Assembly: GCF_021021555.1 (NCBI RefSeq)
Contig: NZ_JAINWA010000001.1
Location: forward strand, 1,178,001-1,242,000
Length of the DNA stretch: 64,000 bases
Direction: 5' to 3'
From: Teretinema zuelzerae
GTDB taxonomy: Bacteria; Spirochaetota; Spirochaetia; Treponematales; Treponemataceae
The notes beneath the pieces were generated by a model. That model did no database searches. It was not told where the DNA came from and worked only from the letters and a program-made list of their open reading frames with translations. Positions 76 through 60,841 of this stretch are shown piece by piece (the stretch's first letter is position 1; the number at the start of each line of letters is the position of its first letter). The position numbers and the translations under genes were made by a program.

Positions 76-2574
76 TTACGGAAAGCGGGGACGGTCCAGC
101 CATTCGGCTAATTCGCGGTCAAGATCGCTCCGCAACAGTTCGCAGGCGCGTTCGCGGTTGTAGTCGCCCGCATTCCACGAATCTCTGACGAGGCGCAGGC
201 ATCCCGCGATCATCGGGTCCGGAGACAGCACCCGGTCGCCGTCAAGCACGGACGAGTCGCTCACGACAATGTCTCCCCAGCCGATCCGGACGGGATTCAC
301 CAGGGACGGCATCCAGCGCAAAAAATCAGGATAAAACGTGACTCCGGCCGAGTCCAGCGCGAGGGCGTCGTACCGGGTAAAAAAGCCCTTTCGGGACGGG
401 GGATCGGCGTACACCAGAATCAAGGAATCGCCGCGGACATGGCCGAGTTCCTCCAGGCGCCGGACGGCGTCTAGGCGGCCCTTCCTCGCCTTCCGGTCGA
501 GAGCTCCGGCGCCGTACCAGAGCCAGCTTTCGCCTCCGAGCGTTTCATCGGTTTCAAGAGCGCGCTCCTCTGCGGCGTCGAGCCTGCGCGATACGAAGGC
601 GGCGAGAAGAGCGTTCCTCTGTCCCCGATCAAGTTCCGTTAATAGAGCCTTGTTCACCGCGGCTCCGCTTCCGATTATGTCTTCCAGGAGCTCGCGCTCT
701 TCATTTTCAGAAAGAGATAATTCCCTTCGGATCGACCAAAAGAAAGCCGCGAGCTGGCCCGCGGTCTCCTCTCCCTGAATCAGGGAAAGAGCTCTGTCCC
801 CGTCGCTTCTAAACACGCGGTCATAGGCGGGAAGGCCGCCTTCGAGCAGGGATGCGAGGATTCCCGCTTCCTGAGCGAACAAAACGGAAACTGCCGAGTC
901 TTCAGGAAGCGCGGAAAAAACAGTCCCGTTTTCAGGCGCTTCGAAAAGAGCCGCGTCTGTCCAGGGACCCAAACCGGTAAGATCCGCGATGCGCGAGGCG
1001 CTGTTCAGCATAGACCTGCGCGAAAGTTCGTAGCGCCGGCCTCTTCGGCCCGAGCGAAGCTCCTCCAGAGCGATTTCATAATCCGTTCGGTACGCATCCC
1101 ACTGCGAACGAGATTCCAGGCGGGACGCGCGCTCCGCTTCGCCTGAAGATTCAGCGGTTTCTAATGAAAACGAAGCGGTTTCTAATGAAAACGAAGCGGT
1201 TTCGAGAGAAAACGAAGCGGTTTCTAATGAAAACGCGAGGTAGAGGGAAGAACCGTCGGGAGCGGATGCGGCGGGAGCGGAATTGCCGCGGTCGGCATTT
1301 GGAGAGAGAGATTCAACGCAGAGAATTTCGTCCACGCCGCGAAGAACCGAAAACACTGAGTCGAAGCGCGCGTCGGCGAAGCCGAAGCAGGAGAGGCGCC
1401 GGGGATCGAGCGGATCATGATACCGGAATACCAGATTGGTCCCGGCGTTCCGTGAGGCGAAGGCGCGCCACAGCGCATCAGGCTCTGTAGCGGCGAAGGA
1501 TTTCGCGGCGGCGGGGCGCGGCGCCGGAGATGAACCTGCGAGCGGTTTTCCCGCGGGGGTGAGCCGGAATAAGCGGGGATTGCCGGGGTCGAACACGGAG
1601 ACGGAGAACTCGCTGTCGTCGCGGAGAGCAGAGGCCGGCCGCGCGGCGACAGGGATACGCGGCTCCGCTGCGGCGGAACGGGCGGTGATCGGACTACGCA
1701 GCTCCGGTTCGGCTGGCCGCGCGGCAACGGAAATACGCGGCTCCGGTTCGGCGGAACGGGCGGCGATCGGACTACGCGGCTCCGGTGCGGCCGGACTCGC
1801 GGCAACGGAAATACGCGGCTCCGGTTCGGCGGAACGGGCGGCTATAGGAGCTGGCGCATTGCGACGAGCAGGGATTCGTTCGGCGGTGCGGACGGCGACG
1901 GGAAGAAATCCGGCGGAAACGCTGCGGGCGACGGGGCCCGGCAAGTTCGCCGAATCGATCAGGCTGTCGGGGGAATTCCCGTAGACGGCCGCGATCCGTT
2001 CGGAGGCGAGTCTCCGGCATTCGGCGCCGAAGAACGGATCGGAAACCGCGATGTCGTAGGCGCGTTCGCGGAAGGCCTGATGAAAGGGCACGAGTACGGA
2101 ATTCCAGTCAGGCGCGAAATCTTCCGCCGCACGCCAAGCGCGGGTTTCGCTGCCCGCCGCCGGCGAGGGAGCGGTTCCGCCGCCCCCGTATGAAAAGGAA
2201 CCGGCGTATGCGATGGAAAACGAGCGGGACGGCTCTTCATCGACGACCGTTCCCATTTCAAGGAAACCTTCGACGGTATAGGGACAGAGCTCCATATATC
2301 GACCTTCAGGCCCTTCGATCGACAGCAGAAAATCGATGTCCATTCGAGCAAGCGAGAGGCGGGCTTCGGCTGTGCGGCTTTGGGCGTAGAGGAATGTCGG
2401 CCAGGTTTTGACGATGAAATTCCTGACGAAGGGGATGCCGGAGGCGATCGACGATGCGAAGCCGGGGCTGAGAGAGTTGCACAGAACGGCAAGCAGGAAG
2501 GCGAAGAGAGCGATCGCGAGGGAAAACGAAGCGCACAGGGCGGCGAGTTTGCATTTTCGGGAGAGCGGCTTCAT
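76..2574 (-). CDS. Hypothetical membrane-anchored protein with two internal repeat arrays
   Basis: Predicted 832-residue protein of unknown function; I recognise no domain. The ATG at 2574 is preferred over the longer reading because it overlaps the upstream gene's stop by four bases (ATGA), a pattern seen at other operon junctions here. Residues about 10-33 form one hydrophobic segment, a signal anchor or uncleaved signal peptide. The middle carries about 2.7 copies of a 26-residue Pro/Glu/Arg/Ala unit (AEPEPR-type), and further on four copies of a 7-residue SLETASF-type unit. The C-terminal third is charged and looks globular. It forms a two-gene unit with 2571..3524. The repeats suggest a flexible extended linker, probably outside the cytoplasm. 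Existence is fairly secure; function unknown. Confidence 0.7.
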   Translation of the reverse strand: MKPLSRKCKLAALCASFSLAIALFAFLLAVLCNSLSPGFASSIASGIPFVRNFIVKTWPTFLYAQSRTAEARLSLARMDIDFLLSIEGPEGRYMELCPYTVEGFLEMGTVVDEEPSRSFSIAYAGSFSYGGGGTAPSPAAGSETRAWRAAEDFAPDWNSVLVPFHQAFRERAYDIAVSDPFFGAECRRLASERIAAVYGNSPDSLIDSANLPGPVARSVSAGFLPVAVRTAERIPARRNAPAPIAARSAEPEPRISVAASPAAPEPRSPIAARSAEPEPRISVAARPAEPELRSPITARSAAAEPRIPVAARPASALRDDSEFSVSVFDPGNPRLFRLTPAGKPLAGSSPAPRPAAAKSFAATEPDALWRAFASRNAGTNLVFRYHDPLDPRRLSCFGFADARFDSVFSVLRGVDEILCVESLSPNADRGNSAPAASAPDGSSLYLAFSLETASFSLETASFSLETASFSLETAESSGEAERASRLESRSQWDAYRTDYEIALEELRSGRRGRRYELSRRSMLNSASRIADLTGLGPWTDAALFEAPENGTVFSALPEDSAVSVLFAQEAGILASLLEGGLPAYDRVFRSDGDRALSLIQGEETAGQLAAFFWSIRRELSLSENEERELLEDIIGSGAAVNKALLTELDRGQRNALLAAFVSRRLDAAEERALETDETLGGESWLWYGAGALDRKARKGRLDAVRRLEELGHVRGDSLILVYADPPSRKGFFTRYDALALDSAGVTFYPDFLRWMPSLVNPVRIGWGDIVVSDSSVLDGDRVLSPDPMIAGCLRLVRDSWNAGDYNRERACELLRSDLDRELAEWLDRPRFP
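1154..1237. repeat. 21-bp tandem repeat, four copies
   Basis: Four head-to-tail 21-bp units lie inside the gene at 76..2574. Copies 1 and 2 are identical; copies 3 and 4 differ at a few bases. In the gene's frame they encode a seven-residue SLETASF-type unit. Length variation between strains would keep the frame. Confidence 0.9.
1637..1846. repeat. 78-bp degenerate tandem repeat, about 2.7 copies
   Basis: Similar blocks start at 1637, 1715 and 1793, a 78-bp period. They encode a 26-residue Pro/Ala/Glu/Arg-rich unit within the protein at 76..2574. The period is a multiple of three, so copy changes are in frame. Confidence 0.8.
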
Positions 2575-3524
2575 CGAGGGCCTCCCTCGAGAAAAAGGAC
2601 ATCGTTCCAACCGAGAGAGCGCCCGATTTCGCGGATCCTCCGCTCGGCAAGGGCGGCGTATCGCTCGCGCGCGTCGGCTTCCCATCTCTCGGAAACGGAA
2701 GCGGCAGATTCTCGCCCGGGCGCTCCCAGAATTTCCAGTGCAATAAGCGGACGCGCGGCAGAGGATAGCAGGATCGGAGAGTCGAGTTCTTCTCCTGCTG
2801 AAGAGAGGGCGGCCATGAAGGCGCCGGTCGCGAGAAATCCGGCGCGAGCGCTTATCGCCCCGCCGGCGGCTCCTCCGGCTGCGGCTCCCGCCAGCGCTCC
2901 GAGCGTACGAGACGCGGACGGAAGGCGGAGCACGCGCGGAAGCGGAGAGGCAAGAGCTCCGAGAGCAGAGCCCGCGGCGCCTCCGAGCCCGGCTCCGGCC
3001 GCCGCGCCGAGCGTTGCGGTTCCCACGGCGACGGCTTTGGAAGCCTGTTCAATATCTTGCGCCGAGTAGCCCCGGGGTTCGATTTTTTCGATGAGGGTGA
3101 TGTCGGCGGGATCGAGAGAAACCTGAACCGACGCGGGAAAGGCGGTGTCCGCGCTCCGCCAGTCGGTCCGCAAAACGAGAACGCGGTTGAGCCAGTCGGT
3201 CCGCCGTTCGTCGATCGCCGCCCGCCGCAAATCGCAGACGACTGACGCCTCTCCCCTCGCGTGATAGACGGCGGCCCGGAAAAAACGGGGGTCGGCTCCG
3301 GCGGGAGAAGCCTGAACGAGATAGCGGGAAAAGCGCACGGTCTCGAGGACGAGGGCCGACTCGGGACGGGCAAGAAATCGCTCGGCCCCGGAAAGCGTCA
3401 TTCGGTTGACGGCGTAGCGGACGCCGATAGCCAAGAGGAGGGCCGCCGAGAGGGCCGCGAGGACGGCGAGTGCGAAGGCCGGCGGATTCGCGCGGAAGGA
3501 CTGCGCGATGTTCGACTTTTTCAT
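2571..3524 (-). CDS. Hypothetical membrane protein with glycine-zipper region
   Basis: A 317-residue protein of unknown function. Residues about 16-38 are one transmembrane segment. Residues about 163-240 are strikingly Gly/Ala-rich with GxxxG-like spacing, like glycine-zipper segments that pack in or onto membranes. The region between has mixed charge. It is the first gene of a unit with 76..2574, and their stop and start overlap by four bases. No convincing Shine-Dalgarno precedes the ATG; a weak -10-like GATACT lies 8 bases upstream. No family recognised. Confidence 0.7.
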   Translation of the reverse strand: MKKSNIAQSFRANPPAFALAVLAALSAALLLAIGVRYAVNRMTLSGAERFLARPESALVLETVRFSRYLVQASPAGADPRFFRAAVYHARGEASVVCDLRRAAIDERRTDWLNRVLVLRTDWRSADTAFPASVQVSLDPADITLIEKIEPRGYSAQDIEQASKAVAVGTATLGAAAGAGLGGAAGSALGALASPLPRVLRLPSASRTLGALAGAAAGGAAGGAISARAGFLATGAFMAALSSAGEELDSPILLSSAARPLIALEILGAPGRESAASVSERWEADARERYAALAERRIREIGRSLGWNDVLFLEGGPR

Positions 3525-3585
3525 GCTGGTATAGTATCACGGGGTCCGGGATGCGGAAAATAAAAATCAGTTCTGCCGGGGCGTA

Positions 3586-3615
3586 TTGCCCACGAGGGCC
3601 CATCCGGTATATAGT
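3586..3615 (+). promoter_or_regulatory. Promoter of tRNA-Arg
   Basis: A -35-like TTGCCC at 3586-3591 and a -10 TATAGT at 3610-3615 are separated by 18 bases. A transcript would start near 3622, just before the mature tRNA 5' end at 3628. Confidence 0.6.
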
Positions 3616-3627
3616 TGCCGTATTATT

Positions 3628-3701
3628 GATCCATTAGCTCAGTTGGATAGAGCGGTTGCCTCCTAAGCAACAGGTCGGACGTTCGATTCGTCTATGGATC
3701 A
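3628..3701 (+). tRNA. tRNA-Arg (anticodon CCT)
   Basis: A full cloverleaf can be drawn. The acceptor stem GATCCAT pairs with ATGGATC. The D arm contains AGCTCAGTTGGATAG. The anticodon stem GTTGC/GCAAC encloses the loop CTCCTAA, giving anticodon CCT, which reads AGG (Arg). A 5-base variable region and a T arm with loop TTCGATT follow. The 3' CCA is not encoded; the discriminator is A at 3701. Confidence 0.95.
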
Positions 3702-3711
3702 AAGCACAGAA

Positions 3712-3773
3712 AAAAAGGCGCCGAGCCGGCGCGAACGAATGCGTTCAAGCCGGGCCCGGCGCCTTTATTTTAA
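3712..3773. terminator. Bidirectional intrinsic terminator
   Basis: GGCGCCG and CGGCGCC arms form a long hairpin flanked by an A run on the left and a T-rich run on the right. It can end the tRNA transcript on the plus strand and the DUF4097-like gene on the minus strand. Confidence 0.75.
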
Positions 3774-3785
3774 AGCCGGTCGGCG

Positions 3786-4700
3786 TTAAAAATCGATTCT
3801 GATGGAACCGAGGCCGGTTTTCAAATTCACCGTTGCGGGAGCAGAAGAATCTCCGGCAGTCCCGTTCCCGGCGCCGTTCCAGGATTTTCCGTCGATGCTC
3901 ACGGAACCGAGTCCGCGCTCGAACCTGATGAAGTAGCGGTCCGCGCCGCCTGAAAGCTTCATCCCGACGGAACCCATGCCGGTAGAGACCGAGCTGCGGT
4001 CGCCCAAGCTGCCTTCGAACTGAAGGCGCCCGGCGCCGGTTTCGATGCGGGCGGAGTCGAAGGACGCGGCGGTCAACACGACGGAGCCGGCGGCTGTTTC
4101 GAGAGCCGCGCTGCCGGCGGTAATATTTCTGCCGGCAACTGAACCCGCTCCATTTTCCAGGGAGAAGCGGAGCGTCTCCAAGTCCGAGAGTTCCACGTTG
4201 CCGGCTCCGAGTTCCAGATGAACATCCTGCAAGCGTATCTCAGGACCCAGAGTGATTTCCAGTTTCGGCATCCTGAACCCCTGCCTCGAGGAGAATCGGC
4301 CCTTCCAGTCCCGCTCTTCGAAAGAAAAGGAGTCGTCGTCGGAGTCGGTCCTGATGCCGTCCGAGGGAAAGTCCAGAGCACGCCAAGCGCTCGAGTCTCC
4401 TGAACGGATGACCAAACTGCCGGCGGCGAGCGAGACGTCGATTTTCTCAAGACCTGAAGGAAGAACGCCCTCGATGATTTCCACCCGGCTTATGTCCGCC
4501 TCTTCGGCGTCGTCGGCGCTCCCCCAGGATCTCTCCCAGCCGCGCTCGAAGCTGAACCCGTCGCCCGAGCGGTCGAAACGCCAGTGCATGAAGCCGGGCC
4601 ATCGGCCGCCCATCGATAATCCGACAGCGACGAGAACGGCGCCGACAACCAGAAGAACAAAGCCTTTTCCGAGCCCGTCCAGGGGCGAATTACCTCTCAT
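3786..4700 (-). CDS. DUF4097-like (adhesin-like beta-repeat) membrane protein
   Basis: A 304-residue protein. Residues about 12-30 form one transmembrane segment. The rest is a repetitive beta pattern of short strands with recurring G-S-V and E-x-G-A-G turns, as in the DUF4097 domains of many bacterial membrane-stress modules. I start at the ATG at 4700 because a strong GGAGGAA Shine-Dalgarno lies just upstream; the longer reading starts inside the preceding gene. The start overlaps the upstream DUF1700-like gene by 11 bases, so translation is probably coupled. Function in other bacteria is poorly known. Family match is by pattern, not alignment. Confidence 0.75.
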   Translation of the reverse strand: MRGNSPLDGLGKGFVLLVVGAVLVAVGLSMGGRWPGFMHWRFDRSGDGFSFERGWERSWGSADDAEEADISRVEIIEGVLPSGLEKIDVSLAAGSLVIRSGDSSAWRALDFPSDGIRTDSDDDSFSFEERDWKGRFSSRQGFRMPKLEITLGPEIRLQDVHLELGAGNVELSDLETLRFSLENGAGSVAGRNITAGSAALETAAGSVVLTAASFDSARIETGAGRLQFEGSLGDRSSVSTGMGSVGMKLSGGADRYFIRFERGLGSVSIDGKSWNGAGNGTAGDSSAPATVNLKTGLGSIRIDF

Positions 4701-5304
4701 ATCTTCCTCCGCTGCCGATCGCCCAGGCAAGAAAACCGGTCAACAACGCGATCGCCGCTCCGATTATCGAAAACAGGATTTTCCCGATTCCCCACAACAG
4801 AAAAGCGGCTCCGAACACGATGATGGCTGTTGCCGGAGACGTAATAATTGCAGCGAAGCCGCCGATGAAGGCCGCAGCTCCCCCGATTATCAAACCGATA
4901 GCGGCGATTCCGACGGCGGCCAGGGCCGCGAATCCGCCGAACGCGAGACCCAGCAGGCCGAGCAGGGCTGGAAGGGCGATCGGAGCGGCCAGCACCGCCA
5001 GAACGACGGCCCAGAACGCGCCGAGTCCCCATCGGGAAGAAGAGCCGGGTCCGCGGTAATGCCCGCCGGCGCCGCAACCGGAGCTTGAACAGGATCTGCC
5101 CGCCTCCATCTTGCGCTCCCAATCGTCGAGTATGCGGGAGGCTACGCTTTCCGGCGTTCCAAGACCCCGCATGGTCTCTTCGTCCGCTGAAGGACCTGAC
5201 CGGTCGAATACTCCGGCATAATACCGCAGCACCGATTCGCGCTCGCAATGCGGCAAACGGGAAAGGCGATCCCGCAATTCATGTAAATACTCAGTTCTCG
5301 TCAC
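4690..5304 (-). CDS. DUF1700/HAAS-domain membrane protein
   Basis: About 204 residues. The N-terminal 65 residues are a helical cytoplasmic segment (T-E-Y-L-H-E-L-R-D-R-L) typical of the HAAS/DUF1700 family, followed by several hydrophobic Gly/Ala-rich helices. I choose the GTG at 5304 because AGGGAG lies 7-8 bases upstream and the family motif begins immediately after; the ATG at 5373 would add 23 low-complexity residues. Such proteins often sit beside a PadR-type regulator and a DUF4097 protein. The DUF4097 partner is here; no PadR gene is seen. Confidence 0.7.
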   Translation of the reverse strand: MTRTEYLHELRDRLSRLPHCERESVLRYYAGVFDRSGPSADEETMRGLGTPESVASRILDDWERKMEAGRSCSSSGCGAGGHYRGPGSSSRWGLGAFWAVVLAVLAAPIALPALLGLLGLAFGGFAALAAVGIAAIGLIIGGAAAFIGGFAAIITSPATAIIVFGAAFLLWGIGKILFSIIGAAIALLTGFLAWAIGSGGRYER

Positions 5305-43459: not shown

Positions 43460-44986
43460 CTATCGCGCGTATTCTACAATTCTGGTTTCCCGTATGAGAG
43501 TTACCCGGATGCGTCCGGGATAGCGCAGATCGTTTTCGATCTTCTTGGCTATATTGCGTCCCAATTCCTTTACATCGGCGTCGGGAATCTTCTCGTTGTT
43601 CACGAGAACCCGGAGTTCGCGGCCGGCCTGAATGGCGTACGCTTTCTCTACTCCGGTGAATCCTTCGGCGATCGACTCCAGGTTTTCAAGCCGCTTCACG
43701 TAATTGTCTATGGTCTCGCGGCGCGCTCCCGGCCTTGCGGCTGAAATTGCGTCGGCGATCTGCACAAGAACAGACTCGATGCACGACGGCTCTACGTCGT
43801 TGTGGTGAGAACCGATCGCGTTGATGACGCGCGCGTCCTCGTTCATCTTCCGCGCCATCTCCATACCGACTTCGGCATGGTTCTGGTCGGAATCGTTCTC
43901 CGCGCCCTTTCCGATATCGTGCAGCAGCGCGGATCTCTTGGCGAGTTCGCGGTTCGCGCCGATTTCGGCGGCGAGCATTCCGGCTATCATCGCGACTTCC
44001 TTCGAGTGGTACAGGACGTTCTGTCCGTAGCTCGTGCGGAAGTACAAGCGGCCGAGAGCCCGTACGCCTTCCTGGCTCATGTTGTGTATGCCCAGATCGA
44101 AGAGGACTTTCTCCCCTTCTTCGTAAATCTTTTGCGAAATCTCTCTGGTAACCTTCTGCACGATCTCTTCGATGCGCGCGGGATGGATTCGTCCGTCGAG
44201 AATGAGCCGTTCGAGCGAAACCTTCGCGATTTCCTTTCTCACGGGATCGAAGCAGGAAATGACCACTGCCTCGGGAGTATCGTCGATAATGACGTCGACT
44301 CCGGTCAGCGTCTCGAGCGTGCGGATGTTCCGCCCCTCGCGTCCGATGATCCGTCCCTTCATTTCGTCGCTGGGAAGGCTTACCGTCGCTACGGTGATGT
44401 CGCTCGTAGTCTCGGTCGCGATGCGCTGTATCGTAGACACAAGCACGTCGCGGGCCTTTTTCTCCGAGGAAAGCTGCGCTTCCTGCTCGATCTTGTTGAG
44501 CAGAAGCTGCGCGTCGTGCTTCGCCTCGTTCTCAAGATCCTTGATAATAAGGGCTTTCGCCTCTTCTGATGTAAGTCCGGAGATTCGTTCAAGCTCCAGA
44601 CGATACCGTTCTTCTTCTCCGTCGATGAACTTTTCCCGCTCCGCAAGATGTTTTTCCTGCTCGGCGATTTTTTCATCCTGCTTGTCCATCGTTTCAGTGC
44701 GTTTGTCTAACGCTTCTTCCTTCAGGGTAAGCCTGCGCTCATAGCGCTGCAGCTCGCTCCTGCGTTCACGATTTTCCCGCTCCTGCTGGTTTCTTTCCCG
44801 AATAAGCTGTTCTTTTGCTTCTAGAAGAATTTCCTTCTTTTGCGCTTCTGCTTCTTTAATTGCGTCCTGTTTTACACGTTCCGCTCTTTGTTCAGATGCA
44901 GATAGTTGAAATCTGGCGTACAGCCAGCGAATAGTCCATCCAAGAAATAAACCGGCAGCAGGCAGGACAACATACAATACATTCAT
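43460..44986 (-). CDS. rny: Ribonuclease Y
   Basis: A 508-residue membrane-anchored endoribonuclease that starts mRNA decay. Residues 1-24 form the TM anchor, about 25-190 a long charged coiled coil, then a KH domain (I-I-G-R-E-G-R-N-I-R) and an HD domain (L-L-H-D-I-G-K-G, metal-binding His-Asp). Start at 44986 follows GGAG at good spacing; the ATG at 45019 has no ribosome site. It has its own promoter and a structured 3' region. Confidence 0.96.
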   Translation of the reverse strand: MNVLYVVLPAAGLFLGWTIRWLYARFQLSASEQRAERVKQDAIKEAEAQKKEILLEAKEQLIRERNQQERENRERRSELQRYERRLTLKEEALDKRTETMDKQDEKIAEQEKHLAEREKFIDGEEERYRLELERISGLTSEEAKALIIKDLENEAKHDAQLLLNKIEQEAQLSSEKKARDVLVSTIQRIATETTSDITVATVSLPSDEMKGRIIGREGRNIRTLETLTGVDVIIDDTPEAVVISCFDPVRKEIAKVSLERLILDGRIHPARIEEIVQKVTREISQKIYEEGEKVLFDLGIHNMSQEGVRALGRLYFRTSYGQNVLYHSKEVAMIAGMLAAEIGANRELAKRSALLHDIGKGAENDSDQNHAEVGMEMARKMNEDARVINAIGSHHNDVEPSCIESVLVQIADAISAARPGARRETIDNYVKRLENLESIAEGFTGVEKAYAIQAGRELRVLVNNEKIPDADVKELGRNIAKKIENDLRYPGRIRVTLIRETRIVEYAR

Positions 44987-45024
44987 GCGTATGCTCCTCT
45001 CCATTTTATAAGCTGTCAAACTAG

Positions 45025-54987: not shown

Positions 54988-55480
54988 TCAGGTATGGGCG
55001 AAGCCGAACTTTTTCACGAAAAAATCGATATTCGATCCGACGAACACTCCGCACCAACCGGTAACCGCCACCCCGCAAAGGATGGAAAACGGCACGATGA
55101 ACGAAGGGCCGAAGGCCGCGCGCGACCATTCGCCGACGGATGTAAAAGGCAGCACGGAAAAGCCGCCGGCGAGAATAAACCCGGAAACAAGCCAGCGGAA
55201 CATCGAAACATGGCGGTCGACGGGTTCAGGCGCTACCCAGGCGATGCCCGACGAAGAAATGCGGGCAAGAAGCGGCCTGCACGACGGGATCGGCAGACTG
55301 AGGCAATACGTCTGCCTGAGCGGGAGCAAGGGGAGCCGCGAGCACTTTCTCGGCAAGGGTCAGCCGACGCACGCTCGTGCGGCACACCGGACAGAATAAC
55401 AGATGAACAGTCACCGAGAGCGGAACGTGTTCGTATTTATCAAGCGAGAGATATCTATCAAAGGCCTTTTGGCAATTCAT
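54988..55480 (-). pseudogene. Anti-sigma factor gene with a frameshift
   Basis: Starts at 55480 behind GGAG, overlapping the ECF sigma gene by 23 bases. The N-terminal part reads M-N-C-Q-K-A-F with a zinc-finger motif H-L-L-F-C-P-V-C, typical of anti-sigma factors. This frame stops at 55226. The other frame (to 54988) then encodes two TM helices (F-R-W-L-V-S-G-F-I-L-A and I-V-P-F-S-I-L-C). Moving one base forward near 55265-55285 joins them into one protein of about 163 residues. Either a real mutation or a sequencing error. If real, the sigma factor may be freed from control. Confidence 0.65.
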
Positions 55481-56045
55481 GAACGTCTCCTTCATCGAGC
55501 TTCTCGCGCAAAATTTTCTTCGCGCGGAAAACATGGGACTTAATGGTGTTTACCGGCAATCCGGTAACCTCGCTGATGTCAGCGTACGGCATGTCGTAGA
55601 AAAAATAGAGATCCACGCACGCACGAAAGCGCTCGGGGAGGGATTTCACCGCTTCTCTGACCGCCTCCCGGGAACAATCCTTGAGGTGTCGTTCCTCGGG
55701 AGTGTCGGCGGGGTCGGTAATATCGTAATCTTCAGCGAGCGACGCGTATTCCCTGCGCCTGTTCACTGCGTTGATCGCTGTATTGTACGCTATCCGCATC
55801 AGCCAGGTCGAAAACTTCGACTCGCCCCGGAAAGACCCCAAAGAGGTGTAGACCTTGATCAGAACATCCTGCAAAAAGTCTTCAGCGTCGTCTCCGTTTT
55901 TAAAGAAGCCGTAGCCAAGGCTTAATATCCGCCGGCGGTATTTTTCCGCCAACACGGAAAAGGACGAAATATTCCCCGCCAGAACTTCTCGGCATAACAG
56001 AGAATCGTCCTGCGGCGGGAGCGGGGGGAAATCATTCCCGTGCAT
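55458..56045 (-). CDS. ECF RNA polymerase sigma factor
   Basis: A 195-residue sigma-70 family group IV factor. Region 2 has D-A-E-D-F-L-Q-D-V-L and F-S-T-W-L-M-R-I-A-Y-N-T-A; region 4 has L-P-E-R-F-R-A and V-N-T-I-K-S-H-V-F-R-A-K. It overlaps the membrane-protein gene upstream by 14 bases and the anti-sigma gene downstream, so they form one unit. Confidence 0.93.
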   Translation of the reverse strand: MHGNDFPPLPPQDDSLLCREVLAGNISSFSVLAEKYRRRILSLGYGFFKNGDDAEDFLQDVLIKVYTSLGSFRGESKFSTWLMRIAYNTAINAVNRRREYASLAEDYDITDPADTPEERHLKDCSREAVREAVKSLPERFRACVDLYFFYDMPYADISEVTGLPVNTIKSHVFRAKKILREKLDEGDVHELPKGL

Positions 56046-56400
56046 TATCGTGTTTTCTGTCGGATCGGGTTACGAAGTAGAAAGCGATGAGGCTGATCCC
56101 GAGAGCGAAGGGAATAAGCCCTCCAAGCAGGGAATAGCTGATTCCTTCGATTAACAGAAAAAGCAGCGATAGAACAAGGCCGGTTCCGGTAAGCAGGAAT
56201 CCCGCCAAAACGCAAAACAAATATAAGTCGAAAACAGGACGCGTATAGCCGCCCCTTTCAATATGCCGTACAATTTGCCGATGCCGCCATAGCAGATAGA
56301 AAAAAACGACAACGGCGCCCATTACAATGCCCACGATCGGAATCGTCGCGATCAGCACCTGGGCTGCCGGCACCGCGCTCGCAGCGCCTGAAAAATCCAT
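56032..56400 (-). CDS. Small membrane protein of unknown function
   Basis: A 122-residue protein with three hydrophobic segments (about 10-35, 60-80 and 85-110) and a basic C-terminus. GGAGG six bases before the ATG at 56400 sets the start; the longer reading is not supported. Located between the FliL-like gene and the ECF sigma gene. No family recognised. Confidence 0.75.
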   Translation of the reverse strand: MDFSGAASAVPAAQVLIATIPIVGIVMGAVVVFFYLLWRHRQIVRHIERGGYTRPVFDLYLFCVLAGFLLTGTGLVLSLLFLLIEGISYSLLGGLIPFALGISLIAFYFVTRSDRKHDNARE

Positions 56401-56465
56401 ATCATCCTCCTTCCCGAATTCAGACACGAATATCCGCATCCGGGTTGCGCCTTGCACGCGCGCTA

Positions 56466-56978
56466 TTATTGAAAAATTTCGTATTCGCTGAAATACAGCG
56501 ATCCGGCCGAGCCCAGAACGAGATGCGCGTTGATTTCCGCTAACAGCGATTTCTTTACGGCGTTTTCGCCCAGAATCGCCAGCTCCCGCGCTGTACGGGA
56601 CGAGCACCATTCCCGGAAAAGGTCCCGGATTTCCGGGGTCTTACGGGACAGCTCTTCGGCAAAGGGGCGGTCTCCGGCAGGGATGGTCAAATACGGGCGA
56701 ACGACGAGGGTCGCCGGCTTGTCGCCGGAAAGCGGAATGCGCAGAGTCCCGATGCCGGAAAAAAGGCTTTCACCGTCGACGGCGACGCCCTGCGAATCGC
56801 CGCCCCGCCGCTCTTCGATGCCGAGGAGGCTCCGGGGGTTCGCGCGGCCTGAAGCGAAAGCCCAGAGGGTTCCGGCCACGATCGCGGCGAAAATCAGCGT
56901 GCCGACAATCATCAGCGCCGCCGAAACCATGTCCAGCGGAGGAAGCGTCTTTCTTTTTGCGGTTTTTCCCCTACGCAT
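56466..56978 (-). CDS. FliL-like membrane protein
   Basis: A 170-residue protein with one TM helix (about 15-40) and a C-terminal domain resembling FliL: L-V-V-R-P-Y-L-T-I, then R-D-L-F-R-E-W, then K-K-S-L-L-A-E-I-N and Y-F-S-E-Y-E-I at the end. FliL supports the flagellar motor. Here it overlaps hflX by eight bases, with no flagellar genes around, so a non-flagellar role is possible. Start at 56978 is by inference. Confidence 0.7.
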   Translation of the reverse strand: MRRGKTAKRKTLPPLDMVSAALMIVGTLIFAAIVAGTLWAFASGRANPRSLLGIEERRGGDSQGVAVDGESLFSGIGTLRIPLSGDKPATLVVRPYLTIPAGDRPFAEELSRKTPEIRDLFREWCSSRTARELAILGENAVKKSLLAEINAHLVLGSAGSLYFSEYEIFQ

Positions 56979-58242
56979 GGCCCTTCTCGGCAAAAGGAGC
57001 GAGCGCGGCCGAAAGCCGCCCGGAAGACCGGGCATGCATGCGTATGAACTCGTCTCCGTACTCGATCGAAGAAACGCTTCCCTCCCGGTGCGCGAACGCG
57101 ACCAGATCCTGGCGGGCATGGGGCAGCAGATACACGCCCTCGTCCCCGCCTAAAAGGGAATCGATCCGCGATATCAACGACTGAAAGCCTTCGCGCGTTT
57201 TCGCGCTGATGGACACCGCGTCGGGGTAGAGCGCGCGCAAAGTTTGCCGGGACATCTCGTCCAGCCGATCGATCTTGTTTAAAACCGTCAACACCGGACG
57301 ATCGGCGGCCCCGACCTCGGAAAGAACCTCTTTCGTCGTTTTTTCATGAACCGCGATGTCCGGATCGGAAGCATCCAGAACGATGAGCACCGCGTCCGCG
57401 AAAACCGCCTCTTCAAGGGTCGCGTGAAAGGCGTCGACCAGGGTGTGCGGAAGGTTGCGGATAAAACCGACGGTGTCAGTCAGCAGTATGGTGCGGCCGT
57501 TCGGAAGCGAATAGCGCTTCGTCGTCGGGTCGAGCGTCGCGAAGAGCTTGTCCTCGGACAACACCCCGGCGTCGGTCAAGGCGTTCAATAAACTTGATTT
57601 TCCCGCGTTGGTATACCCGACGATCGCGCAGGAAGGAACGGGAACCCGTTCGCGCCGCTTGCGCATGGTGGCGCGGTCCTTCCGCACCGCCTTCAGCTCT
57701 TTTTTAACCAGGGCGATGCGGTTCATCACCCCGCGCCGGTCGAGCTCGAGCTGGGTTTCGCCGGAACCCTTGTTTCCGAAAGCGCCTCCCCGCTGGCGCG
57801 AAAGATACTCGTGGGCGTGCGTGAGGCGCGGCAGCGAATATTCCATGCGCGCAAGCTCCACCTGCAATACCGCCTCGCGGGTAATCGCGCGCGCGGCGAA
57901 AATGCGTATTATCACTTCCTGCCGGTCGAGACAGGTCTTTCCGGTAAGCGAATCCCAGTTCCGCTGTTGCGTCGGGGATATTTCGAAATCGAACACAATT
58001 TCGTCTGCATCGAGTTCCTGAGCCTGTAATGAAATTTCCTCGGCTTTCCCCGAACCCATGCCGAATTTAGCGGACGGTTCATTGCGCCTCAGAACGATGG
58101 TTCCTGCGACAGTCAAACCGGCGGTTTTTACCAGGCTCGACAGCTCCCGCAGCGCGTCGTGATCGGAAAGAGCCTTGTCTTCCGTGCGGCCGACCAGCAG
58201 TGCTCGTCTCGGGCGCGAGCCCTCAGCTTCTAAATCTATCAT
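56971..58242 (-). CDS. hflX: Ribosome-associated GTPase HflX
   Basis: A 423-residue GTPase that rescues stalled ribosomes under stress. N-terminal HflX domain with G-S-G-K-A-E-E and R-G-G-A-F-G-N-K-G-S-G-E-T-Q-L-E; GTPase motifs G-Y-T-N-A-G-K-S-S, D-T-V-G-F and N-K-I-D. A TATAGT box ends seven bases before the ATG at 58242, without a Shine-Dalgarno, favouring that start over 58251. Confidence 0.94.
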   Translation of the reverse strand: MIDLEAEGSRPRRALLVGRTEDKALSDHDALRELSSLVKTAGLTVAGTIVLRRNEPSAKFGMGSGKAEEISLQAQELDADEIVFDFEISPTQQRNWDSLTGKTCLDRQEVIIRIFAARAITREAVLQVELARMEYSLPRLTHAHEYLSRQRGGAFGNKGSGETQLELDRRGVMNRIALVKKELKAVRKDRATMRKRRERVPVPSCAIVGYTNAGKSSLLNALTDAGVLSEDKLFATLDPTTKRYSLPNGRTILLTDTVGFIRNLPHTLVDAFHATLEEAVFADAVLIVLDASDPDIAVHEKTTKEVLSEVGAADRPVLTVLNKIDRLDEMSRQTLRALYPDAVSISAKTREGFQSLISRIDSLLGGDEGVYLLPHARQDLVAFAHREGSVSSIEYGDEFIRMHARSSGRLSAALAPFAEKGHA

Positions 58243-58249
58243 CAGGCAC

Positions 58250-58255
58250 ACTATA
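58250..58255 (-). promoter_or_regulatory. Leaderless -10 element of hflX
   Basis: TATAGT on the minus strand, seven bases before the hflX ATG. The -35 is weak (TATGCA at 17-base spacing). Confidence 0.55.
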
Positions 58256-58322: not shown

Positions 58323-58360
58323 AATGTACCCCTCGAGGGAACACCCATTACGGAGGATTC

Positions 58361-60841
58361 GTGCGCACTGCACCGAAAATAGCGATCAGCCTGATTTTAT
58401 CCCTACTCCTCTTTACCGGCCTCACTCTGGCGGCTCAGGCAGGGCTCTTTTCTCTTCTTGAAACCCGGTTTTATCAACCGGCGGTTCTTGAAGCCGCGGG
58501 CGCGCAGCTGGATTCTGTAGCGCAGGAGCTTGACGCATGGCACGCCGAAAACCTCGGCAAATTCAGTGAATTCAACTCGGCCGACCCGGTAAAGCGCAGT
58601 CTCCTTCCGAATCAAAGCGAACAGGACATCTTCGACCGGGAAAATCTCGCAGGCTCGCTCATGACTACCGTTCCCGGATTGACGGGAATCAGGATAATCG
58701 ACGCGGGAGAAGCGCTTCCCGAGGGCGAAACGAGAACATCCTGGAAGATTCATTACAGCACCTTCCGCGAAGATATTCTTAAACGGGAAAAGTTCCAGAT
58801 TTCGTACGAAAACTACGGAAAGAAACCCAACGAACCCGATTTCAACCGTCTTTCCATGAACGACGGACAAGAGCCCAGAATCATTACGGATCCCCAAACC
58901 GACCGCTTCCTGTATTGCTATCCCTTTATCGACTCTTACGGAGCATGGCGCGGAACCGCTGTATTCTATATATCCGGCCAGGCCGCGGTTCAACGCCTCG
59001 TCGCCGCCAACCTGCTCAGAATCAGCGAAAACGTTACGCTCATCTCCGACGAAGCAAGCGACGCGGTCGGCATCGTCACGGGCCTCCCCGCGACGGGGAA
59101 ACAAATCATCGTCGGCGCGATCGCAGAAAAATGGGCTCGGAATGACACGGAAGCGGCAAGAATCGTCGCGACAGAAGACTCCGGCTGGGTGCTTTTATCC
59201 CGCTCCTGTTCAAGCTGCGGCTTCGTCGGCAGGCTGGTCGCGGAAGAATTATTCGTTTTCCCGCTATCAGTGCGCATCCTTTTTCTCGCAGTCAGCTTTT
59301 GCACGATCTTTCTGGTACTATTCCTGCTGTTGAATCTGAAACGGGATGAAATGCTGGTCGTCCGCCAGAGAATACGGCGCTTCCAGGCGGGGTTGCTTAA
59401 CGAGATCATAGAAAAGTCCGATGAACTCAAATGGGACGAGATCCGGAAGAATCTTTCCTACAGAAAGCCGGACTTCAACACCGAAATAAAGAAAAGCTTC
59501 GGCAGACGGCTTGCTAAAAAACACGGTTCCGAGATCGATTCCCTGCTGGACAAGAGCTGGGAAGAGATTCTCGCGGCCCTCGGACATCAGGGCCCCCGGC
59601 GCGACAGCCTGGGAAGCACTGAAGAACTGAGGCAGATGCTCGAGCAGGTGCTCCAGAACAACGCGATTAACCTTACGGTGACCGGTACAGCGGCCCCGCC
59701 GGCAAAACGCTCCGCCCCCTTGCCGAAAACCGCTCAAATTCAAAGCGACGATGCGGATCTCGAAGAACTCTCGGACGAGGTCGAAGAACTTTCAGAAGTC
59801 GAAGAACTTTCAGAAGTCGAAGAACTTTCAGAAGTCGAAGAGCTATCAGAAGACGAAGAACTTTCAGAAGTCGAAGAGCTTTCAGAAGTCGAAGAGCTCT
59901 CGGACGACGTCGAAGAACTTTCAGAAGTCGAAGAACTTTCAGACGACGTCGAAGAACTTTCAGAAGCCGAAGAGCTATCAGAAGACGAAGAACTTTCAGA
60001 CGTCGAAGAGCTTTCAGACATCGAAGAACTCTCAGACGTCGAAGAGCTTTCAGACATCGAAGAACTCTCAGACGTCGAAAAGCTTTCAGACATCGAAGAA
60101 CTCTCAGAAGTCGAAGAACTTTCAGAAGTCGAAGAGCTATCAGAAGCCGAAGAGCTTTCAGAAGTCGAAGAGCTTTCAGAAGTCGAAGAGCTTTCAGAAG
60201 TCGAAGAGCTTTCAGAAGCCGAAGAACTTTCAGACGACGTCGAAGAGCCTTCCTGCAAAGCCGAGGAGTCCGCCGCAGAGGATATTGAAACCGTCGCGCC
60301 CGCTGATGCTGACGAAGTTGAATACCTCGACGGAGAATGGGAGCCTGAACTGCTGGAAGTCGCCACCGACGAGGAAATGGCCGACTTCATGGACGACATT
60401 CCGAATGAACCCGACCACATCCTCGTATACAATTTCGACGAACGTCCCGATCTCGATCATGGACCCGTTAAAATTTCTCTCGACCCGGACGATGCTTCTT
60501 CCGATACATATATCGTGTCCGCGCTTGATTTCTCATCTCTCGATGCGGACGCGGAAGAGGATGCGCAACGAGTGGACTACATCGATTCATTTCTTCTTAA
60601 AAGCCCGATAACAACGATTCCGAGCTGCTACGAAAGCCCTGTGTACGAATTTCTGGAAGTGATCGGAGATGCCGAGCCGGACGATATGGAGGAGCTTTCG
60701 CCGGAGTACGATCGCGAGCAGGAAGACGATACAATGACTATCGTAAACGAAGACGGCCTCTTCGTCGTGGCGGAATCGCCGAAGCCTGGAAAAGAAATCG
60801 ATCCGGAATTCCAGGAACTGGTCAATTCCGTTCTTCTATAA
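58361..60841 (+). CDS. Two-TM membrane protein with cytoplasmic acidic repeats
   Basis: An 826-residue protein with GTG start behind GGAGG. TM1 is about residues 7-28. Residues 29-298 form a periplasmic domain with a Cache-like look (sensor type, low confidence). TM2 is about 300-325. A basic cytoplasmic segment follows to 465. Residues 466-631 are 27 tandem six-residue units of the form E-E-L-S-[ED]-[VADI]. The 195-residue C-terminal part is acidic and non-repetitive. No kinase, methyl-accepting or GGDEF domain is seen. The repeat region is highly acidic and probably extended or coiled. Confidence 0.85.
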   Translation: MRTAPKIAISLILSLLLFTGLTLAAQAGLFSLLETRFYQPAVLEAAGAQLDSVAQELDAWHAENLGKFSEFNSADPVKRSLLPNQSEQDIFDRENLAGSLMTTVPGLTGIRIIDAGEALPEGETRTSWKIHYSTFREDILKREKFQISYENYGKKPNEPDFNRLSMNDGQEPRIITDPQTDRFLYCYPFIDSYGAWRGTAVFYISGQAAVQRLVAANLLRISENVTLISDEASDAVGIVTGLPATGKQIIVGAIAEKWARNDTEAARIVATEDSGWVLLSRSCSSCGFVGRLVAEELFVFPLSVRILFLAVSFCTIFLVLFLLLNLKRDEMLVVRQRIRRFQAGLLNEIIEKSDELKWDEIRKNLSYRKPDFNTEIKKSFGRRLAKKHGSEIDSLLDKSWEEILAALGHQGPRRDSLGSTEELRQMLEQVLQNNAINLTVTGTAAPPAKRSAPLPKTAQIQSDDADLEELSDEVEELSEVEELSEVEELSEVEELSEDEELSEVEELSEVEELSDDVEELSEVEELSDDVEELSEAEELSEDEELSDVEELSDIEELSDVEELSDIEELSDVEKLSDIEELSEVEELSEVEELSEAEELSEVEELSEVEELSEVEELSEAEELSDDVEEPSCKAEESAAEDIETVAPADADEVEYLDGEWEPELLEVATDEEMADFMDDIPNEPDHILVYNFDERPDLDHGPVKISLDPDDASSDTYIVSALDFSSLDADAEEDAQRVDYIDSFLLKSPITTIPSCYESPVYEFLEVIGDAEPDDMEELSPEYDREQEDDTMTIVNEDGLFVVAESPKPGKEIDPEFQELVNSVLL
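59756..60253. repeat. 18-bp tandem repeat array, about 27 units
   Basis: Units close to GAAGTCGAAGAACTTTCA repeat head to tail, a few extended by three bases (D-D-V units). All changes keep the frame. Codons vary (GAA/GAG, CTT/CTC/CTA) more than residues do, pointing to selection on the protein. Confidence 0.93.

Follow-up and report, generated by a model that had tools for sequence, protein, structure and literature searches.

Does the long acidic repeat in a membrane protein of the spirochete Teretinema zuelzerae belong to the design of that protein, or is it an expansion seen in one strain? The gene lies towards the end of the window, that is, the whole stretch of 64,000 nucleotides that was analysed. 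An earlier note on this DNA had described a two-TM protein with a large periplasmic domain and 27 six-residue repeats on the cytoplasmic side. A hydropathy scan and an AlphaFold2 (AF2) model agree on this topology, with a periplasmic domain of about 270 amino acids. The features are as follows:

58361..60841, + strand: whole gene, 826 amino acids, GTG start, with GGAGG at 58352-58356
58367..58450, + strand: TM helix 1 (residues 3-30), from hydropathy and the model
58451..59260, + strand: periplasmic double-Cache-like domain (about residues 31-300), from AF2 and structure matches
59264..59344, + strand: TM helix 2 (residues 302-328), from hydropathy and the model
59345..59584, + strand: conserved cytoplasmic helical domain ending ...LLDKSWEEI (about residues 329-408)
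59762..60241, + strand: acidic array, 26 units of 6-7 residues E[EK]LS[ED]x, pLDDT about 30-40
to about 60259, + strand: decayed 27th unit (EEP) after the array
60314..60364, + strand: post-array block EVEYLDGEWEPELLEVA, common to genus members
60746..60838, + strand: C-terminal motif NEDGLFVV ... PEFQELVNSVLL (residues 796-826), conserved

Counted in frame, the array holds 26 clear E[EK]L units, 22 of six residues and 4 of seven, and 27 if the decayed EEP unit is included. The six-residue units are EELSEV (11 copies), EELSEA (3), EELSDV (3), EELSED (2), EELSDI (2) and EKLSDI (1), and the longer ones are EELSDDV (3) and EELSDEV (1). TRF reports one array at 59780-60234, with period 18, 24.9 copies and 86% matches. 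Within the array stretch of 165 residues, 85 are D or E and 1 is K or R. The pattern EELS[ED] occurs 25 times in the array gene and not once in the remaining window in any of the six frames. The most acidic 100-residue stretch reaches 0.55 in the array gene against 0.30 in the runner-up, among the 40 non-overlapping open frames of at least 200 amino acids in the window. The array DNA is also open in another + frame (59751-60611) and on the - strand (59740-60432), and of these three open frames homologues preserve the acidic one.

Other tandem repeats, at 1153-1235 and 1633-1849 (21-bp and 39/78-bp units), lie inside a long ORF at 76-2685 on the - strand of the window. As for a second array in the same genome, the sole other match (L002, E 1.5e-4) is an unrelated low-complexity stretch rich in PVEAA, located at 1501-1845 on the - strand of that locus, inside a 1172-residue open frame.

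Synonymous variation between units had been taken as a sign of maintenance by selection. The 22 six-residue units have 11 nucleotide forms and 6 amino acid forms. Compared pairwise within the array, the EELS codons give a pS of 0.36 against a pN of 0.010, and all six codons together give 0.25 and 0.08, with no synonymous differences at codons 5-6; such ratios rest on assumptions that tandem duplication and conversion violate, and the low pN/pS hints at constraint but does not prove it. Some constraint on the EELS codons is suggested, in partial support of that claim; the unit itself is not conserved among relatives. An exact 36-bp double unit is present three times in the array gene, a sign of recent in-frame duplication.

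We then asked what kind of protein carries the array. In the hydropathy scan, residues 3-30 form one TM segment and the overlapping stretches 292-311 and 304-328 a second; of 85 homologues scored for such segments, 65 have two, 17 have three and 3 have four. The AF2 model of the N-terminal 458 residues, built with 8 relatives, has a mean pLDDT of 74.8. It consists of a long helix, two mixed alpha/beta subdomains and a second TM helix that continues into the cytoplasmic helices (358-379, 382-387 and 389-408). Values in the periplasmic domain are mostly 80-95, with dips to about 61. Residues about 27-316 align to dCache ligand-binding domains of chemoreceptors and sensor kinases (VIA-align, Z about 10.8-12.6, rmsd 3.6-5.8 A), and single-domain Foldseek matches reach an E of 8e-5. 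With two PAS-like Cache subdomains and a long N-terminal helix, set between two TM helices, the model has the fold of a dCache receptor. The stretch LDKSWEEI, which closes the cytoplasmic helical domain, is invariant across a 9-row alignment. In the full-length model, which is of low confidence outside the N-terminal part, the array has a pLDDT of about 30-40 and no secondary structure, and residues 815-825 form a C-terminal helix with a pLDDT of about 60. The array is therefore predicted to be disordered. A hexapeptide beta-helix was considered for it and dropped, because the units of relatives have other lengths.

Known dCache receptors (the chemoreceptors Tlp3, PctA and Mlp24, and the sensor kinases KinD and DctB) share the periplasmic double-Cache domain between two TM helices and the long N-terminal helix. 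Unlike them, the array protein has no Pfam-matched chemoreceptor signalling, HAMP, kinase or GGDEF domain, and its cytoplasmic side is made of a short helical domain, the acidic array and a C-terminal motif. No methyl-accepting chemotaxis (MA) signalling domain and no kinase, GGDEF or EAL output domain was found by Pfam at E<=1, either in the T. zuelzerae protein or in 7 homologues. The dCache_1 model (PF02743) gives no match in the T. zuelzerae protein, and among the 7 homologues scanned it matches only L056, with 22 bits against a cut-off of 45. Membership of DUF2270 (PF10028) was rejected: the model scores 21.1 bits, below its cut-off of 25, and aligns to residues 313-387 only. In NCBIfam the array is matched most strongly by the glutamate-rich ChePep of Helicobacter (NF041272), with 19.8 bits against a cut-off of 650, a match that is probably compositional; ChePep is a cytoplasmic chemotaxis protein and is not known as a membrane receptor. 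PDB sequence searches with the N-terminal profile and with C-terminal profiles returned nothing convincing, and no Pfam or NCBIfam model names a family for the protein.

The array protein is a member of a dCache-type spirochete family that has no Pfam or NCBIfam name. We define this family by its N-terminal ~410 residues, which comprise the periplasmic double-Cache fold, the two TM helices and the cytoplasmic helical domain. Of the 145 Treponemataceae genomes 108 match the N-terminal query, including all 11 same-genus genomes listed, at 49-57% identity. A profile finds the family in 135/248 genomes of the class Spirochaetia, in 92 of the 186 high-quality ones and in 76/103 genera, nearly always with one copy per matching genome. 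A draw across the phylum gives matches in 46 of 197 genomes. Three of the 46 come from outside the class, with matches confined to the second TM helix and the cytoplasmic part. Two of these three (L134 and L135) share the layout of the family: an acidic array, of EEI/EEL or LEDAED type, and a C-terminal region resembling the GAF-like one. The ORF of L134 has 993 amino acids (1861-4842, + strand, with a long EEI/EEL array) and that of L135 is interrupted by a gap. The gene after the L134 ORF was recognised by eye as presumably an MscS-type channel. The third match (G367, E 4.4e-4) apparently falls inside a PheS-like ORF and was taken as chance.

No paper on the array protein was found among the titles and abstract openings listed from open-licence PubMed Central. 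In the T. pallidum-like genome G020 the orthologue has no array, and by gene order this copy would be TP0593, a name absent from the open-licence PubMed Central full text searched. Treponemal tandem-repeat proteins are on record, among them the T. pallidum acidic repeat protein Arp (TP0433) and TP0470 (PMC9531955); these are different genes. CheWS (PMC10653840) is likewise a different protein.

If the array were a single expansion in one strain, relatives would have none at the same position. Among the homologues read, which are a chosen and not a random part of the matches, mostly high-scoring and with close relatives included, 69 of the 91 readable have a 100-residue stretch at least 40% acidic after the cytoplasmic domain, mostly a tandem array (37/55 in Treponemales, 32/36 in the others). 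The array is thus not a one-strain expansion. Of ten periods tested on the hydrophobic residues (V, I, L, M, F), 3 gives the strongest signal in 62 of these 69 homologues, and in 54 the signal exceeds all 200 shuffles. In the T. zuelzerae protein itself it is only moderately significant, being reached by 8/200 shuffles. Hydrophobic spacings are a multiple of 3 in 1351/1619 cases (83%), although spacings within one array are not independent, since the units are copies.

Two other counts cover smaller samples. In an 84-row count, at least 40% acidity is found in 64 homologues, with period 3 in 57 of the 64 and 49 above all shuffles. With another anchor rule and one masked row, 69/79 are at least 35% acidic and 64/79 are periodic above 50 shuffles. 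The 79-row count omits L054, L056, L057, L118, L128, L129 and L130 (anchor mismatch) and counts the masked L034; the 84-row count restores those seven with hand-set anchors and omits L034 and the too-short L052. The 91-homologue count alone includes L021-L024, L026, L027 and L030, and all counts exclude the duplicates L091 and L092 and the broken L072, where an early stop (genome G063) is either an assembly error or a pseudogene. Another locus, L062 (G002), has a frame change in or after the array, with the same two explanations.

The unit varies in sequence and length between lineages, even inside one genus. Examples are VEELDEVES in L033, EEAEAVEELDEV in L026, a mixture of EELSEV, EELAEV and EELTEV in L044, VEE[VI]GE in L129, EELEELAEEPEELEES in L039 and a unit 21 residues long in L114. 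What appears to be conserved beyond the exact unit is mostly composition and triplet rhythm.

Length changes between close relatives as well. All five pairs whose N-terminal parts are at least 90% identical have linkers of unequal length, with differences of 22-46 residues. The pair L021/L023 is 96.5% identical in the N-terminal part and 93.9% in the C-terminal part, with spans of 233 and 279 residues (a difference of 46), and L129/L130 are 95% identical with linkers of 300 and 263 (37). These differences of 37-46 residues between flanks 94-97% identical bear out the suggestion that the array could change length without loss of frame. The pair L046/L076, which has no array, shows 90.8% N-terminal identity and linkers of 260 and 232 (28), and therefore drift in linker length is not special to arrays. 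Going by these alignments, the linker is resized while the neighbouring domains stay, with or without an array.

Some lineages do without a strong array, which is thus dispensable there: 22/91 homologues are below 40% acidic, including the T. pallidum-like copy (0.30). Four of the low-acidity homologues (L045, L046, L076, L078) have no triplet rhythm. In the 84-row count 20 fall below 40%, most of them without period 3, and in 3 no more than 2/200 shuffles reach as high. Contigs end inside or beside the array in L048, L052, L067, L069 and L080, and unknown bases occur there in L034 and L135, so short-read assemblies may under-report arrays.

These observations bear on the view that the array is tolerated replication slippage in a disordered linker, with no function of its own. 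The fast change of length and unit, the thrice-repeated 36-bp double unit, the orthologues without an array and the drifting linkers of arrayless relatives would all fit it. However, arrays recur at the same site in lineages across the class, as well as in two genomes from beyond the class, acidity and triplet rhythm are mostly kept while units differ, and pN/pS is low in the EELS codons. We consider slippage alone an improbable explanation.

The far end of the linker is conserved as well. In Treponemales the tail pattern DGvFxI followed by FKxLVDSVL is found complete in 41/47 proteins and never complete in shuffled tails; 6/47 do not have both patterns. Of 35 non-Treponemales proteins, 21 have a DG-type pattern at a distance of 140-340 residues from the C-terminal end (shuffles give a mean of 0.2 and at most 2), and the other 14 lack it in that region. 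A profile comparison run without choosing the motif aligns the Treponemales tails to the pre-GAF region of the 35 non-Treponemales proteins (hhalign, probability 95.7, E 1e-8). The C-terminus is out of sight in L048, L052, L067, L069, L080 and L100 (contig end), L034 (masked) and L062 (frame change).

After the motif, non-Treponemales members have a weakly GAF-like C-terminal domain that is absent from Treponemales, with GAF_2 matches in 3/35 members and a best E of 0.0089. A tree of 84 N-terminal domains, with groups labelled by taxonomy, has one Treponemales/non-Treponemales change (support 100/99). The domain seems to be present also in L134 and L135, which come from outside the class, and its loss in the Treponemales ancestor is therefore the simpler reading.

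A variable disordered linker that ends in a conserved short motif is known from the FtsZ C-terminal linker and from the CheR-tethering pentapeptide of chemoreceptors. These proteins are unrelated to the array protein, which differs in having a larger motif and a linker in which acidic residues make up about half, with a triplet rhythm.

In terms of gene neighbourhood, two settings were found. Among the 36 non-Treponemales loci, 32 have rpoA and 30 have rplQ a short distance upstream, in the same orientation as the family gene. RNase Y directly follows the family gene in 18 of the 36, and a TIGR00282 phosphoesterase gene comes after RNase Y in 13. These counts are lower bounds, given the short contigs and flanks; neighbours were clustered by BLAST and their identities come from one locus, L125. 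As a lead, this setting points to joint expression with the ribosomal alpha operon and possibly to a connection between the family and RNA turnover.

The non-Treponemales neighbours are also one reason to weigh a reading in which the array is the working part, acting as a nucleic-acid mimic or as a multivalent acidic platform to which basic partners bind. These would be RNA-handling or ribosomal proteins, and the units, many and near-identical with a hydrophobic residue at every third position, would be interchangeable low-affinity sites. Several results speak against it. Unit sequence varies even within a genus, a poor fit with a specific binding motif, and some orthologues have no array. In all 13 Treponemales genomes searched that consist of one or two contigs, RNase Y is at least 53 kb from the family gene, and 3 of the 4 non-Treponemales genomes in the same distance survey do not have the two genes side by side either. 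In T. zuelzerae it is at 43460-45019 on the - strand (TIGR03319, 710 bits), 13 kb from the array gene and on the other strand, a position that could be left over from an old linkage or be due to chance. The platform is rather unlikely on this evidence, and because of the distance in Treponemales RNase Y is kept as a partner only as a lead.

In Treponemales HflX is nearby in 25/50 loci, divergent from and adjoining the family gene in 24 of those 25; at a greater distance, an ECF sigma factor and a FliL-like gene that scores below curated cut-offs are also recurrent. The window has all three at 55458-58251 on the - strand, divergent from the array gene, with the FliL-like protein below the Pfam cut-off; as far as HflX is concerned, many Treponemales have the same arrangement.

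The recurrent FliL-like gene in this upstream cluster is one point in favour of a part in motility or the cytoskeleton, where the protein would serve as an anchor in the membrane and cooperate either with the periplasmic flagella or with CfpA, the protein of the cytoplasmic filament. Co-distribution offers others. FliG is matched in 205/248 class genomes and in 135/135 that bear the family, and the family occurs in 0/43 genomes without a FliG match. The 678-residue protein that we take to be CfpA is matched in 101/135 family-bearing genomes and in 13/113 others. However, both counts are confounded by descent, the FliG-less genomes being mostly from few families, and 70 FliG-bearing genomes have no member, many of them from one family of about 1 Mb genomes (f22). 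The 34 family-bearing genomes without a CfpA match, and the 13 with CfpA and without the family, weaken CfpA as a partner. A specific role in motility or the cytoskeleton therefore seems improbable.

Apart from these counts, the match to the presumed CfpA in one complete Treponemales genome (G350, C1:2249888-2251657, 53% identity) contains an internal TAA, and a number of other Treponemataceae genomes have no match.

We favour, at a little under even chances, a dCache receptor or scaffold that holds its output on a disordered polyanionic tether of drifting length. This builds on the architecture and its conservation, on linker turnover between conserved flanks and on the predicted disorder. 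The periplasmic dCache domain would sense a ligand, and signal or anchoring would pass through the second TM helix to the conserved helical cytoplasmic domain. The polyanionic tether would keep the C-terminal motif off the acidic membrane and within reach of a cytosolic partner, which the motif may dock. In the case of non-Treponemales the tether would also hold the weakly GAF-like domain. In most lineages selection would retain the acidic and disordered character and the placing of a hydrophobic residue at roughly each third position, while unit sequence and copy number drift through in-frame duplication and deletion.

Charge and triplet rhythm are usually kept while units differ, so the repeat looks like a maintained flexible tether. 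Among the roles the earlier note had listed for the array, spacer or scaffold is the most likely, with the charged spacer supported as a reading; nothing was found in favour of a cation or polymerase sink.

A bolder version, which we regard as a long shot, is a spirochete-wide receptor of the envelope that couples periplasmic sensing to the RNA machinery whose genes lie next to it (RpoA, L17, RNase Y and the TIGR00282 phosphoesterase). The acidic array would then be a polymer that resembles RNA or acts as a spacer, and might form a polyproline-II-like rod bearing a single hydrophobic stripe. If true, selection would keep only charge and triplet rhythm in that polymer while its units are rewritten between lineages.

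Lastly, the interest of the locus is at the level of the family. The array leads to a receptor-like family that is unnamed in Pfam and NCBIfam, near-always single-copy and present in 92/186 high-quality genomes of the class, a conserved protein whose tether is rewritten with charge and rhythm kept in most lineages. Its rewritten repeats between conserved flanks form a natural series in which it can be tested which properties of a tether selection keeps, whether charge, length, periodicity or sequence.
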